Positions 3,946 to 25,811 of a stretch of DNA of 29,285 nt are shown here, one piece after another. The notes beneath the pieces are model-generated. The model saw only the letters and a program-made list of their open reading frames with translations, was not told the DNA's origin and did no database searches. Numbering within the stretch: the first letter of the stretch is position 1; each line of letters opens with the position of its first letter. Position numbers and translations under genes: made by a program. The stretch spans positions 1 through 29,285 of the IMG/VR virus record IMGVR_UViG_3300042541_002754; one strand, written 5' to 3'. Source of the DNA: a virus.

Positions 3946-4572
3946 TTACTTTCGGAATCTATTAATTAGCTTATTAATCAATTCTTTTAAGATAACCCCC
4001 GAAATAGTTAAAAGACCAAATCCCGCCAATCTTTGAACAATGTGAGAAGGCTCAACTGATGAAGGATCACCTTTAGCCAAATTATAAATCATTGGAATTA
4101 GGGGTATAATAAATGTGTAACTCATAATATTAGTTACTTTATGAAGGGTAATACCCAAACTACCGATAAAATCCAAAAAAACCCTTTTCAATTCGTCACT
4201 TTTCTTAAGGACAGATTTAAATGGTTTTATTAAACCCTCTTCTTTTATCTTATTATATATTTTTGAAACAAATTCTTTATTATCAACATAATATGATGAA
4301 ATGACACCCATTAATATTAAACTGAGTTCAAGATCTGAAAGATCTGGATATCTTCCGGCTAAGTAATCTTCTAATGGACTAACAAAACCGCCGATAGTTG
4401 CACCCCAAGTAATTAAAAATTCTAAATTAATACCTACTTGTTTTGAGGAATCTTTAATGATTTTTTTAGCAAATTCGTAATTTTGGGTGATAATATCCCC
4501 AAATTTTCCACCAGATTCTTCAGATAATAATAATCTTTTTTGGTGTTCAGTAATTAAAATTGTTACACTCAT
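3946..4572 (-). CDS. tagged multi-helix membrane protein
   Basis: A 208-aa protein starting MSVTILITEHQKRLLLSEES. The first 20 residues match the recurrent tag (ITE...LLLSE, an L-x-E site followed by ESGG). Beyond it are several hydrophobic segments at about residues 49-68, 80-96, 135-165 and 180-200, separated by charged loops, so it could be membrane-inserted. No family was recognised. A tagged, membrane-active protein would fit a virion component that enters the host envelope during DNA delivery, but this is inference. A late-type motif AGTATTTATTAAC is 2 nt before the ATG. Confidence 0.75.
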   Translation of the reverse strand: MSVTILITEHQKRLLLSEESGGKFGDIITQNYEFAKKIIKDSSKQVGINLEFLITWGATIGGFVSPLEDYLAGRYPDLSDLELSLILMGVISSYYVDNKEFVSKIYNKIKEEGLIKPFKSVLKKSDELKRVFLDFIGSLGITLHKVTNIMSYTFIIPLIPMIYNLAKGDPSSVEPSHIVQRLAGFGLLTISGVILKELINKLINRFRK

Positions 4573-8983: not shown

Positions 8984-10327
8984 ATGGAAAAAAATATTTT
9001 ATCTGAAGAAATAAAAAGAATGGTTTTACTATCAAAATATGATAACCGTAAAACTTTAACAGAAAATGCTGATCTTGTTAATGAAATGATTGTTGAGGGG
9101 ATAGGTCAAGCTCTTGCCGATTTATTCAAAGCTGATTCTGGACTCGCAAGAGCTGCAGCTAAAGATATTGAATCTGGGATATTAAGCATTAAGGGTGGTG
9201 TAACTGACGTTAAAGGGGTTGCGTTAACGGATGGTAAAAGTGTTATGAACGCGGTTAAAACGGGTACATTAGGAGCCGTTGAACTAGGTAAAGTAAATGC
9301 CATGTTGTTCAGTAAAACTGCTAGTGACCAAGTCAGAAGGGCGATCATTAGTGATTTGATGGGATCAAAGTCTTTAGTAACCAAATTTTCTAAATTAACT
9401 GAAAAAGAGGCTATCGCGAATTTAAAGGCGACTGGTAAGTACACAGATAGTGAGATTACCCACGCAATGAAGGAGTATAAAGCAAAAGGGAATACTTTTA
9501 AAGGAAAAAGTGGTGCAACACCTAACACATCAAAACCAACAACTAAAAACCCAAAAGTAAAAAAACCAAAAGTAAAAAAACAAAAACCAGCGCCGATCCC
9601 AAATAAACCAACAAATTGGCAACAATTTAAAGATAAAATTAGAGGATTATCTCGTAGTAAAATTGTTAAATATTTAGTTGCTGCTGGAGGTATATATCTT
9701 TTATATAGATGGTTAACATCAAAAGGGACAACACCATTCCCAATATGTTTAACAACAAATATGTCAACGGAGGATTATCAAAGAATGCACGATGAGGGTG
9801 TTGATGATATTTTCATTGGGGAAACGGGTAATTCTACTATTGATATGAATGGTGGTGGTCGTTTTTCTGACAATGGAACATTTAAAACTGCAAATGGGAA
9901 ATACTCAGGTGATTGGTCGGAAGAAAATGGTGGGATTGCAATCACTATTGGTGGTCAATCTTACAATATGGCTTGTGGGGTAGTAGATCCAGAGGTGCGA
10001 TGTCCTGAAGGCCAATCTTGGGATGGTGAAAAATGTGTGCCAGTTGGACCAAATCCAAATCCAAGACCGTGGGTTAATTGCACAACATTCCCATATAAAA
10101 GAGGTTGTAAAAATAATGATCTTGTTGAAATACAAAAGTGTTTAGGAATAAGTTCTGATGGGAAATTTGGGAAAGATACTGAACGAGCTCTTAAAAATAA
10201 GGGTTATGATACAATTATTACAAAAGAACTTTATGATAAAATAATGGCGAATTGTGGTAATACAACAACAACAACGACAATATTTACACCAGAAAGAAAT
10301 GAATTCGGTAACGATGATTTAATTTAG
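8984..10327 (+). CDS. tagged virion-like protein with C-terminal peptidoglycan-binding domain
   Basis: A 447-aa protein. The N-terminus MEKNILSEEIKRMVLLSKYD is a tag variant, and at about residues 34-39 lies EMIVEGIG, an I-x-E-G processing site. Residues 40-170 are an Ala/Lys-rich helical region. Residues 178-210 form a Pro/Lys-rich linker (KNPKVKKPKVKKQKPAPIP). A single membrane segment follows at about 226-245, then a beta domain with a CPEGQSWDGEKCVP motif near 343. Residues 365-425 match a PG_binding_1-like domain: GCKNNDLVEIQKCLG, DGKFGKDTERALK. The protein ends with a Thr run and ERNEFG. The layout suits a virion protein that spans the envelope and docks on peptidoglycan. No catalytic wall hydrolase is seen in it. 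Confidence 0.82.
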   Translation: MEKNILSEEIKRMVLLSKYDNRKTLTENADLVNEMIVEGIGQALADLFKADSGLARAAAKDIESGILSIKGGVTDVKGVALTDGKSVMNAVKTGTLGAVELGKVNAMLFSKTASDQVRRAIISDLMGSKSLVTKFSKLTEKEAIANLKATGKYTDSEITHAMKEYKAKGNTFKGKSGATPNTSKPTTKNPKVKKPKVKKQKPAPIPNKPTNWQQFKDKIRGLSRSKIVKYLVAAGGIYLLYRWLTSKGTTPFPICLTTNMSTEDYQRMHDEGVDDIFIGETGNSTIDMNGGGRFSDNGTFKTANGKYSGDWSEENGGIAITIGGQSYNMACGVVDPEVRCPEGQSWDGEKCVPVGPNPNPRPWVNCTTFPYKRGCKNNDLVEIQKCLGISSDGKFGKDTERALKNKGYDTIITKELYDKIMANCGNTTTTTTIFTPERNEFGNDDLI

Positions 10328-17247: not shown

Positions 17248-17610
17248 TTATTTTAACTCGTAATCTATAGATAATTTTCCCGATTCTTTTTTTGGTTTTT
17301 TAACCAATTGACCGGAAAAATTTGAGTCAAAAGCTTTGGCGATTAGTCGGTTTTTTAAACTTTCCCAATTTTCACCATGAGTAAATTTAGTTGGGTTTTC
17401 TTTAACTTCATCCTCAATGTCTAATAAGTCATTGATAAAATATTCTCTAGGCCTCATTGGCTTACTTGTTGCCATTTTTTGGACTTTCCTACTTGCAGAC
17501 TTAACTTTGTCTGTTAACCATCCTTCTTCCATTTCAGTTTCTTGTTCCTGAATAACTCTACGAACAATATGCATTAAGTCTGACTCTGTAAGTTTAATAA
17601 TTCTTTTCAC
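17248..17610 (-). CDS. small tagged protein (clearest packaging tag)
   Basis: A 120-aa basic protein with a GTG start. Its N-terminus, MKRIIKLTESDLMHIVRRVI followed by QEQETEMEEGW, is the most typical tag in this window: a basic strand, the LTESDL turn, an amphipathic helix, then I-Q-E and M-E-E-G sites with an aromatic residue after the Gly. The remaining part is Lys-rich (KVKSASRKVQKMATSKPMRP) and could bind DNA. I read it as an internal virion protein trimmed after targeting, comparable to the T4 internal proteins, but no homologous function is known. A late-type motif lies 11 nt upstream. Confidence 0.75.
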   Translation of the reverse strand: MKRIIKLTESDLMHIVRRVIQEQETEMEEGWLTDKVKSASRKVQKMATSKPMRPREYFINDLLDIEDEVKENPTKFTHGENWESLKNRLIAKAFDSNFSGQLVKKPKKESGKLSIDYELK

Positions 17611-22357: not shown

Positions 22358-23068
22358 ATGGGAAAAATTAAACTAGAAGATATTTTAATAATTACTGAGG
22401 AATTTTTAGGCGGTATTGATGAATTAGTCTACAACCCTATAACAAATAATCCTGCGGATGAGTTTGATAAAGGTTCTGATGGGGGTGTGGTGAAAGACAA
22501 AATACGTTGGGACAACCATGATGACCATCTACATATTGGAACAACAAATCGAGATGTGATGATGCAATTAATTGATAAGGCGCAAGGAATGGGTTTAAGT
22601 AGTACTGAAAATCCATATGCCAAAAACGACCCAAATAGTAAAGTTGATAAGGTTCACGCCACAGGAAGTTTTCATTATAAAGAGTTTGAAGGACAACCAA
22701 CAGTTGGTGCGGGAGTAGACTTTTCGGGAACCAAAGCAACACTCAGAGAGTTTATTAGATGGATTAACGCTAACTATAAGGGTAAACAGTCCCCAACAAA
22801 TGCGACTGTCGAGGCACCTGAAGCACCAAAAGGAACCACAAAAACACCTGACGATAAAACAACAATTGACACAGCAACATCATCATCAACTCCAGCGTCA
22901 ACCACAACTGACTATGGGGATTTGAGTTATTTAGATCCGTTGATTGATAAATTACCTTTAAAGGCTTTAGCAAAATCATTTGTCAACACAGGTGTTGCTG
23001 CAGAATCTACTGAATCAAAAAAAATTAATGAACAAATTAATCGAATAAAATCAATAATGAATTTATGA
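22358..23068 (+). CDS. M15-like peptidase-fold protein, apparently circularly permuted, C-terminal tag
   Basis: A 236-aa protein. Residues 51-61 read WDNHDDHLHIG and residues 103-123 contain GSFHYKEF...GAGVDFSG. M15/VanY-type DD-peptidases use SxHxxGxAxD for two zinc ligands followed later by a HxH motif. Here both elements exist (H106 and D121; H57 and H59), but in reverse order, suggesting a circular permutation. Activity on peptidoglycan crosslinks is plausible, not shown. Residues 145-190 form a Thr/Pro/Ala-rich linker. An I-T-E-E site is near the N-terminus. The C-terminus KKINEQINRIKSIMNL is a tag-like helix. It overlaps the next gene by 4 bp (ATGA). Confidence 0.72.
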   Translation: MGKIKLEDILIITEEFLGGIDELVYNPITNNPADEFDKGSDGGVVKDKIRWDNHDDHLHIGTTNRDVMMQLIDKAQGMGLSSTENPYAKNDPNSKVDKVHATGSFHYKEFEGQPTVGAGVDFSGTKATLREFIRWINANYKGKQSPTNATVEAPEAPKGTTKTPDDKTTIDTATSSSTPASTTTDYGDLSYLDPLIDKLPLKALAKSFVNTGVAAESTESKKINEQINRIKSIMNL

Positions 23069-23661
23069 GATCTTTAAACCCACTACCAAACGGTACAATG
23101 TCAACACCTTTCTTTTCAAAATCTGTTGAACTTTCATCTTATAATTCTGACACGATCATTAGCCCTAATGATGGGATTGTAGTGTCGTCAGATAAAAATA
23201 AATGTGGGGGTAATATTAAAATAGAACATTTAATTGACGGAAATTCTTATTATTCCAAATTTTGTAATGTCGGTAACATATATTCAGTTAGAGGTAATCA
23301 AGTTAGTCGAGGTGAAAGGATTGGTACTGTTGGGGATTCTCCAATAGAATATACGGTGACCAACTCAAATGGTGATAAGATGGATGTGAGAGATTTTTTA
23401 TCTGGTAACATTACATCTCCGAAAAGTCAAGACAAAGAAATTGAAAAAGAAAAATCCAAAGAAATCAAAAAAGAAAAAGAAAAATCCAAAGAACGAGAAA
23501 AAGAAAGAAACAAAAATGAAATAGATAGTACACCAATGACAAACCCTTTTATGGATCTACTCTTATCTCCAGTAACCATCACTGGTAAAGTGTTTAAAAG
23601 TATGAAAGGAAAGTCGATTAAAGAAGAAGTTGATAGAATTAAACAAATTATTAAACATTAA
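23065..23661 (+). CDS. degenerate M23 (LytM)-like protein with C-terminal tag
   Basis: A 198-aa protein. Residues 30-98 follow the M23 peptidase scaffold: IISPNDGIVVSS, NIKIEHLIDGNSYYSKF, NQVSRGERIGTVGDSPIEYTV. The zinc ligands are missing: there is no HxGxD and the final HxH is replaced by IEYTV, so it is probably not a peptidase but a structural or wall-binding version. Residues 108-155 are a Lys/Glu-rich coiled segment with repeats of EKEKSKE. The end SIKEEVDRIKQIIKH matches the C-terminal tag of the preceding protein. The two genes are translationally coupled and probably work together in the virion. Confidence 0.72.
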   Translation: MRSLNPLPNGTMSTPFFSKSVELSSYNSDTIISPNDGIVVSSDKNKCGGNIKIEHLIDGNSYYSKFCNVGNIYSVRGNQVSRGERIGTVGDSPIEYTVTNSNGDKMDVRDFLSGNITSPKSQDKEIEKEKSKEIKKEKEKSKEREKERNKNEIDSTPMTNPFMDLLLSPVTITGKVFKSMKGKSIKEEVDRIKQIIKH

Positions 23662-24102: not shown

Positions 24103-25016
24103 CAAATCGGAAAAGTCCGAAACGTTCTTTGAAATATTATTTATCCATCAGGAAGTTGATGATGAGACCTTCGGGTTGATTCTGAGATAACTGAGAAAGA
24201 TAATCGGCCGTGTATGGTCGTTAAATAAACCACGAAAGTGGGATAAAGTGAATTTGCGAGTGTTAGTAGATTTGCGTCTTGGGAAACCGAGGTCGAGTAC
24301 ACAAGTGGGATATCATCCGACCTTTAGTATTGAGGGCGACGCTTTAGGGAAAGTGGTTGGATGGAACGGCAATGTGGATTGTCAGTCTGAGGGGGGAACT
24401 CCAATAAGAATAACCCATAGGTATCAAGCGAAAAATATAAATTCCAAATATATTATTGCGGATACCATTATAAAAGGGGACTTAAAACCGAAAGGTAAGA
24501 TAAAGAACGAGTGGTGTCGCTATTATCCTTATCAAAGATCTACCAAGATCTTGATATGAAGTAATCTTAAAATATGGAAATGGGGACATTTCACGAGGTA
24601 GTCAGGTATTCTGTTTTTCAAAAGAAAATGGATCCTAAACGAACCGCTACTTTGATTCATCCACAACACATACCTTATTACTAAATTAAGTAAAATTAAC
24701 TAAAAATAAGCAAAAGTGTTCGTTACGATATAACGGAAGTTACCCACCTATTCACTGGCTGTCAGTGGAACGTAATAACCGCAAGTTAGACCGTATTTTT
24801 ATGAAAAATCTCTAGGACGTCGAAATCCGAATCAGGACGCAATCTTGATGAGACAGGAGTAGTAAGAGAGTAGTTGTATCGTCAAGGAGTGATTGGTCTA
24901 ACCAATCGGTAATGAGTGTTACAGGACAAAATCCTGTGGATAAGAGTAGAATACATAATGACTCAAAAGACACTTAATAAAAACTATAATCTCAGGTTTT
25001 TTTAATATTCAAATAT
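24103..25016 (+). ncRNA. large structured noncoding RNA (giant phage RNA candidate)
   Basis: About 0.9 kb without a convincing gene, transcribed from tandem promoters and ending at a tRNA-Met-like element and a terminator (25116). Composition is visibly richer in G and GA runs than neighbouring coding DNA. Several perfect hairpins are visible: TCGGA/TCCGA at 24107-24120, CGTTA/TAACG at 24721-24735, CACTG/CAGTG at 24753-24767, GATTGGT/ACCAATC at 24891-24907 and ACAGGA/TCCTGT at 24921-24937. The leader holds a boxA-like element (24124-24138). Size, location beside a tRNA and phage setting recall the GOLLD and ROOL classes of giant RNAs, but I cannot match it to either by eye. A 104-codon frame inside it is judged spurious. 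RNA status is inferred from structure and promoters. Confidence 0.62.
24107..24138 (+). promoter_or_regulatory. boxB/boxA-like antitermination leader
   Basis: A 5-bp hairpin TCGGA-AAAG-TCCGA (24107-24120) followed by GTTCTTTGAAATATT (24124-24138). The latter resembles the boxA element of Bacteroidetes rRNA leaders (GTTCTTTGACATAT) that recruits NusB-S10. The tmRNA leader has nearly the same element. Confidence 0.5.
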
Positions 25017-25395: not shown

Positions 25396-25811
25396 GGGTG
25401 GAGGTAGAGGCTTCGAAGCCTCGTAGTTGTCCATAACAATTATTAAGTACTACATGTTTAGGTCATTGTTTAATTTAACAATCCGAAATCCCACAGTTCC
25501 CTTATTATACAGTTCGGTTTACTGAGAACTAATCCTCTGCCATCTGATTATCCTCTGATTGGTTAGAGTTTACACCTTTTATGGTAGATGTCACACCATG
25601 AAGACCGTTCTGTTCCTAGGTATAAGTCTATCCACCCGTTGTTTTTTTCGCCTTAGGCTACTGAAACATTTTCCTCAGTACGGATTAATCCTACCGCTGA
25701 AAGTTTGTTGATAACGTTGCCGTGTATCGATTTAAGCCAGTTTTACAAGGTTAGCTCAGCCTCGACATGCCCCGAATAATTAACTATGTCAGTCAATTCC
25801 AATTTACCCCC
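25396..25811 (-). ncRNA. ssrA: transfer-messenger RNA (tmRNA)
   Basis: The 5' GGGGGTA (25805-25811) pairs with the 3' TACCTCC (25400-25406) to close a 7-bp acceptor stem, followed by discriminator A and CC. The 5' side has TTGGAATTGAC, matching the tmRNA CTGGATTCGAC element, then GGGGCATGTCGAGGCTGAGC with pseudoknot PK1 (GAGG/CCTT and TGAGC/GCTTA). Eleven nt after PK1 is resume codon GGC (25719-25721), the same spacing as in E. coli. The 3' side has CTAAACATGTAGTAC, almost identical to E. coli CTAAGCATGTAGTAC. The tag frame runs 25721 to 25653: 22 residues starting GNVINKLS and ending TEENVSVA, then TAA. The T-arm GAGGC-TTCGAA-GCCTC has a 6-nt loop. tmRNA with SmpB rescues stalled ribosomes and tags the nascent protein. 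No smpB gene is present here. Confidence 0.88.

Follow-up and report, generated by a model that had tools for sequence, protein, structure and literature searches.

A putative circularly permuted M15/Hedgehog-type peptidase and a ligand-less M23 protein with a common terminal tag in a large bacteriophage

The M15 fold, catalytically dead LytM partners and capsid targeting are each already known. M15/Hedgehog-like domains are present in tape-measure proteins of the Microcystis phage Mwe-JY05, the Brevibacterium phages AGM16, LuckyBarnes and Rousseau, and the cyanophage S-SM2, most of them in annotated tail proteins. They carry HP...VHxxxSxHY followed by GxAxD and [GN]HxxHxH, the latter with VIW before it, and show only weak Pfam matches, to Peptidase_M15_4 and HH_signal. 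The M15/Hedgehog-like domains of tape-measure and baseplate proteins (L063–L068 and L057–L061) stay below the Pfam cut-offs and look like an uncurated family.

EnvC, NlpD and ActS are M23/LytM pseudoenzymes that act beside an active wall hydrolase. In the Csd1–Csd2 heterodimer of H. pylori, Csd2 is without bound zinc (PMC5053510). In phage T4, gp21 cleaves after L/I-x-E, the capsid targeting sequences are removable terminal peptides of which ten residues are enough for targeting, and the C-terminus of Alt is also processed (PMC9026906).

The two genes described here come from a stretch of viral DNA of 29,285 nucleotides (IMG/VR record IMGVR_UViG_3300042541_002754), termed the window, and their products are termed P1 and P2. 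P1 has HP...VHxxxSxHY-like residues in common with the tape-measure domains, but in those domains the HxH strand comes last and no terminal tag was seen. P2 is proposed to place a ligand-less M23 domain beside an active wall hydrolase, as in systems of the EnvC/NlpD/ActS type and in Csd1–Csd2 (PMC5053510); it differs from EnvC/NlpD/ActS and Csd2 in that it is phage-encoded and has an M15-like putative partner and a terminal tag. The tag resembles both the gp21 propeptides and the capsid targeting sequences of T4 in being a short terminal signal beside L/I-x-E, with an S77 gene present in relatives, whereas the signal of T4 IPI–III is N-terminal and that of P1 and P2 is C-terminal, with a putative wall hydrolase as cargo (PMC9026906). 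Judging from a limited literature search, the permutation, the exchangeable enzyme beside a constant pseudoenzyme, and the tag at either end are new variants.

Gene pair and its relatives

An earlier note on this DNA described two overlapping, translationally coupled genes for virion proteins that end in one tag-like helix. Both reading frames are present as claimed, with an ATGA overlap, and the two C-terminal tails are the same motif (Table 1). The designation ‘virion proteins’ is an interpretation and not an observation.

Table 1. Location of genes, protein segments and RNA elements at the locus and of related features
Feature	Position	Strand	Description
Tagged window protein	8984..10327	+	N-terminal tag (MEKNILSEEIKRMVLLSKY...TLTE), LxE site; C-terminal peptidoglycan-binding-like stretch (by eye)
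Carrier of second N-terminal tag	17248-17610	-	also G002 (L034, L038, L039)
Upstream neighbour of P1	21726..22337	+	203 aa; one hydrophobic N-terminal segment; GAF-like-looking domain (by eye)
P1	22358..23068	+	236 aa, ORF; putative circularly permuted M15/Hedgehog-type zinc peptidase, linker, C-terminal tag
P1 residues 45-62	22490..22543	+	hairpin strands beta3-beta4, W51, H54-x-x-H57-x-H59; C-terminal in normal-order relatives
P1 residues 63-142	22544..22783	+	helix, strand, S-F-H106-Y, G-V-D121, helix; N-terminal in normal-order relatives
P1 linker and sub-terminal segment	22784..23023	+	Thr/Ser/Pro-rich; related to segment of L019 normal-order M15-like protein
P1 C-terminal tag	23024..23065	+	INEQINRIKSIMNL; I-N-E site
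ATGA stop/start overlap P1/P2	23065..23068	+	4 bases; same overlap in L002, L003, L004, L019
P2	23065..23661	+	198 aa; catalytically dead M23 (LytM-fold) protein, charged linker, C-terminal tag
P2 residues 18-96	23116..23352	+	M23 domain; Cys47/Cys67 kept; P93/E95 at HxH place
P2 C-terminal tag	23617..23658	+	IKEEVDRIKQIIKH; I-K-E site
Conserved ORF	24248-24559		probably 5′ half of GOLLD RNA, no gene
GOLLD RNA (RF02032)	24594-24998	+	E 1.2e-79; just downstream of P2
tmRNA gene (RF00023)	25396-25811	-	adjoins GOLLD RNA; also in L003
Normal-order M15-like slot proteins	L004:5239-5955, L019:1783-2514		

The relatives that have P1, or the gene slot that it occupies, are viral metagenome contigs. 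The same pair is found in L002 and L003 (63% and 51% identity), with L002 providing the P1 orthologue (63% identity), and the known P1 set is small, i.e. two distinct sequences on three contigs, the window, L002 and L003. Orthologues of P2 are those of L002, L004, L018 and L019. A recognisable P1 is absent from the isolated phages, plasmids and bacterial genome contigs searched, and among viral contigs a DNA pattern of the permuted motif picked up no loci beyond those already known. The one match to this pattern in genome contigs is a chance match, antisense to a coding frame.

Behind the same upstream gene (85–90% identity in relatives), L004 and L019 have a normal-order M15-like protein (SRHxxGEAVD...GHFHxSY) in this slot, and the dead M23 gene follows. 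These slot proteins resemble P1 in their place before the dead M23, their linker, their tail and the ATGA overlap, with the tails of both genes retained, but they differ in having the normal motif order, and a direct profile match to P1 is absent. Coupling and common tail are conserved even in these relatives with the first gene swapped. Linker likeness is evident in a profile of the P1 linker and sub-terminal segment (A3 columns 159–238), which matches G008 with an E-value of 4e-7, and in tblastn (44% over 63 aa, L019 vs L056).

The slot is empty in L018, where the dead M23 gene begins 16 bases past the upstream gene. L006 and L009 have active and dead M23 domains in a single polypeptide, plus the tail, and the tailed protein of L010–L015 has one M23 domain, an active one. 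Comparison of the slot across relatives therefore defines the recurring unit as a tagged peptidase and a tagged dead M23, of which the peptidase is exchangeable. The earlier note suggested a packaged wall-penetration pair; the pairing does not stand as an obligatory one, since L018 has P2 and no first gene, while the packaging is indirectly supported by the tag.

Several other elements were observed in these genomes. The GOLLD RNA is also found downstream of the gene pair in L003, L004 and L019. A T4-type RNA ligase gene is split at the same place by different endonuclease-like ORFs in two contigs (L018:1350–3298 and L019:2–1073), the L018 ORF being GIY-YIG-like by eye. The 49-kb relative L006 has a group I intron (4063–4279), and a 637-aa protein of L009 (5001–6914) has three M23 domains that by sequence are active, partly degenerate and dead.

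Terminal tag and its possible role in packaging or lysis

The tag has the motif L-x-E-[DE]-I-x-[RK]-I-K-x-[LM]-[MIL]. Among 747–795 scanned ORFs from the related contigs and the window it is strictly terminal, at the N or the C end and never internal. It is present at the C-termini of peptidases, their dead partners and one unrelated protein (L038:17671–18441), and at the N-termini of nine other proteins, which include a PG-binding/M23/lysozyme protein and the window protein listed in Table 1. A matrix of the tails scores 26–33 at the C-termini of P1 and P2, whereas 8,193 internal 18-mers from these genomes score 12.9 at most; since the tails were themselves the training set of the matrix, their score is circular. 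With a regular expression of looser form there is no match in 3,638 internal 34-mers. Together, these scans of internal segments rule out that the tails are alike by chance.

The tails of P1 and P2 start with I-N-E and I-K-E, and some tails have V-x-E in place of L/I-x-E. A second N-terminal tag, (K)IIRLTESDLxRLVKRVIxEQ with I-x-E at its end, is found in many otherwise unrelated proteins of the same genomes. When both kinds are considered, [IL]xE is found behind 16 of 18 N-terminal tags, compared with a background of 17.6%.

T4 gp23 is cut at residue 65. The capsid protein of the relatives has the sequence HLINE/ASST at residue 60, i.e. a candidate site at about the same place. Genes for this gp23-type capsid protein and for an S77 prohead protease are found in five related contigs; both are absent from the window's own contig, itself a fragment. 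As a short terminal signal with an L/I-x-E site, the tag sequence has the form of T4-type capsid targeting. Packaging is indirectly supported, because the tag is terminal only, has [ILV]-x-E sites similar to those of T4 gp21, and occurs in relatives that encode a T4-type capsid protein and an S77 prohead protease. The tag would then direct P1 and P2 into the capsid as the T4 signals do, and the S77 prohead protease would remove it at [ILV]-x-E. Tag-driven packaging of the two proteins into the head is slightly favoured on these grounds. That they act at entry and not at release is a more tentative suggestion, to which we give somewhat less than an even chance.

The tail can also be looked at as a docking helix that has nothing to do with packaging but belongs to a lysis system, with P1 as an endolysin, P2 as a wall-binding or regulatory partner, and the upstream membrane protein acting as, or together with, a holin. 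The window protein directly upstream of P1, with its one hydrophobic N-terminal segment, is compatible with this, as is the sole DUF2061 gene, whose membrane-protein product looks holin-like by eye, found directly upstream of the tagged M23 in five related contigs; in addition, the capsid gene is ~25 kb off in relatives. However, the window pair has no DUF2061 gene beside it, and the gene is lacking in the window as a whole as well as in the 40-kb L018 contig. The tag is also carried by non-peptidases and by the PG-binding/M23/lysozyme protein, at either end and beside [IL]xE sites, and a 326-kb relative offers a better candidate for a lysis cassette, where an amidase without the tag lies among ORFs for small membrane proteins. 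Lysis as the role of the pair thus appears rather unlikely. This Amidase_2 protein (L070:1113–1718) and its neighbours (205–2705) are likely the lysis cassette of that relative. A limited literature search found no paper on DUF2061 in phages.

Motif order and probable fold of P1

P1 has the motif order first proposed for it, DHLHIG ahead of SFHY...GVD. The segment N53-H-D-D-H-L-H-I-G61, with H54, H57 and H59, precedes S104-F-H-Y107, with H106, and G119-V-D121, which is the reverse of the family M15 order, SxHxxGxAxD then HxH. All candidate ligand residues are invariant in the L002/L003 orthologue (63% identical). There are no histidines C-terminal to D121, and therefore a zinc site in P1, if any, must use the early HxH. 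H106 and D121 are 15 apart compared with the usual 7 (H-x14-D vs H-x6-D), a spacing that is 8 residues longer.

P1 has no family match in Pfam, PHROG or NCBIfam and no PDB sequence match. The P1 core has no match to the M15 families (VanY/VanX/M15_3/M15_4) at E-values up to 10, short of the curated cut-off, and PF08291 has no match anywhere in the window.

Comparison with a doubled template is the usual way of detecting circular permutation. Seven normal-order M15/Hedgehog-like domains served as templates. They were fetched with a probe based on a motif of tape-measure-protein domains that resembles SEHPAFGGV.PVHT.GSxHYxGRAxDV; because the probe was shaped on P1, the comparison of profiles was only partly blind. 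The natural members found are from Microcystis phage Mwe-JY05, Brevibacterium phages, cyanophage S-SM2, one mycobacteriophage and, later, a Yimella plasmid. The template domains have the normal order, with GHxxHxH-type strands at the end, and some show weak Peptidase_M15_4 and Hedgehog matches (E 0.06–0.09).

With the single template, hhalign aligns P1 over residues 70–111 only (probability 46, score 28.1), whereas the doubled template yields a probability of 87, a score of 40.5 and a pairwise E-value of 4e-6. The doubled-template alignment runs from P1 residue 52 across the template C-to-N junction into the N-terminus. It pairs NHDDHLHIG of P1 (H54-x-x-H57-x-H59) with GHYNHAHFD/GHHDHLHAD, and ENP...VHATGSFHY with template HP...VHxxxSxHY; W51 is, by eye, at the position of template VIW. 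By comparison, 300 column shuffles reached a maximum score of 22.8 and the reversed template 12.4. Leaving out any one template gave 34.8–40.7, and the window P1 sequence alone gave 37.2. Normal-order relatives (L004, L019 and domains of phages EL, RisingSun, VH-8 and D'Alembert) scored 39.3 against the single and 39.2 against the doubled six-member profile, i.e. without gain. Profile comparison of P1 with the normal-order M15 proteins of its own relatives, single or doubled, gave no match.

Structure prediction was based on alignments of two to three sequences. The AlphaFold2 model of residues 1–146 has a pLDDT of 49 and no PDB match; that of residues 40–146 has a pLDDT of 63 and a pTM of 0.61, which is low to middling confidence. 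The latter shows strand 48–53, strand 58–62, helix 65–77, strand 80–81, strand 118–123 and helix 126–139. Since the Hedgehog/DD-peptidase fold is alpha-beta2-alpha-beta2, this is the order expected of a permutant, although the model is too weak to serve as proof. For the trimmed model, the better of the two, Foldseek and VIA list folds of the ferredoxin-like or shell-protein type, all with Z below 8; these are common alpha/beta arrangements on which no interpretation is placed, and M15 is absent among the matches listed.

These data bear on the question of whether P1 is an M15-type protein at all. If the motifs were coincidental or belonged to another fold, P1 would be a non-catalytic packaged protein. 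The missing family match, the resemblance of the middling AlphaFold2 model to ferredoxin-like folds, the odd H-to-D spacing and the undetected match to the relatives' normal-order M15 proteins can all be read in this way. Such a reading has to contend with the doubled-template score of 40.5, which exceeds the shuffle maximum (22.8) and holds without any one template, with the invariance of all candidate ligands, and with the normal-order M15-like protein that has the same tail in the same gene slot of relatives; it seems improbable. The circular permutation that the earlier note had suggested gains support from the doubled-template test with its shuffle, reversal and leave-one-out controls, and, on profile evidence, P1 is quite probably a circular permutant of the M15/Hedgehog fold class. 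A limited literature search found no earlier natural circular permutation of this fold.

In the proposed layout of this M15/Hedgehog-class zinc peptidase, the former C-terminal strand pair with H-x-x-H-x-H would come first, followed by a helix, a strand, SxHY, GxD and the last helix. By analogy with LAS peptidases, H106, D121 and H59 are the predicted zinc ligands and H57 the predicted catalytic residue. Zinc binding and activity of P1 appear fairly likely, and the protein may be an endopeptidase or carboxypeptidase that acts on stem peptides.

The M23-like protein and the proposed role of the pair

P2 matches Pfam Peptidase_M23 (PF01551) over residues 18–92 with an E-value of 2.3e-9 and 37.7 bits, above the cut-off of 28.7; its orthologues in L002 and L004 score 31.2 and 37.6. 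When P2 is aligned with the active M23 domains that related contigs encode, HNGVDL is replaced by SVELSS, FCHM by FCNV, and RHLHF by SPIEY. None of the three zinc ligands (H, D, H) and neither of the two catalytic histidines that mark an active M23 is thus left in P2, the H and D of HxGxD being among the residues lost, in agreement with the view that it keeps the M23 scaffold without its ligands. In the dead M23 proteins the histidine of the FCH motif is changed to N or K, and both histidines of HxH are changed, to P93 and E95 in P2. The Glu at the second histidine of HxH, together with a Cys pair, is common to P2 and the dead domains within the L006 and L009 fusions. Conservation of Glu95 and of Cys47/Cys67 suggests that the fold has been retained and the site altered.

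A pseudogene is ruled out by the intact reading frame and the conserved substitutions in all relatives. A reading of P2 as the functionless remainder of an active M23 peptidase in decay is very improbable, since the loss of every catalytic residue is accompanied by a reading frame intact in all relatives seen, by conservation of the Glu and the Cys pair down to the fused domains of L006/L009, and by retention of P2 in L018, where the first gene is absent.

The best reading is that of a head-packaged permuted enzyme with an M23 pseudoenzyme as partner, which we consider to be marginally on the probable side. P2 as an M23/LytM pseudoenzyme would probably bind peptidoglycan, or stabilise or position its partner. 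Both proteins would be packaged in the head, trimmed, delivered with the DNA, and would loosen the host wall during entry. In a wider sense, T4-type giant phages related to the one described here may pack wall hydrolases inside the head by means of a tag at either end that is cut by the prohead protease, with one branch having a natural M15/Hedgehog permutant and a conserved M23 pseudoenzyme; this generalization is put forward as less probable than not.

If true, the circular permutation of an M15/Hedgehog domain would mean that the zinc site tolerates rewiring. The terminal tag, carried by diverse proteins of phages that have a T4-type prohead protease, would, if its reading is correct, make head-packaged proteins readable from sequence in uncultured giant phages. 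It would also raise the question of whether in such phages it is the head, and not the tail, that delivers wall hydrolases.
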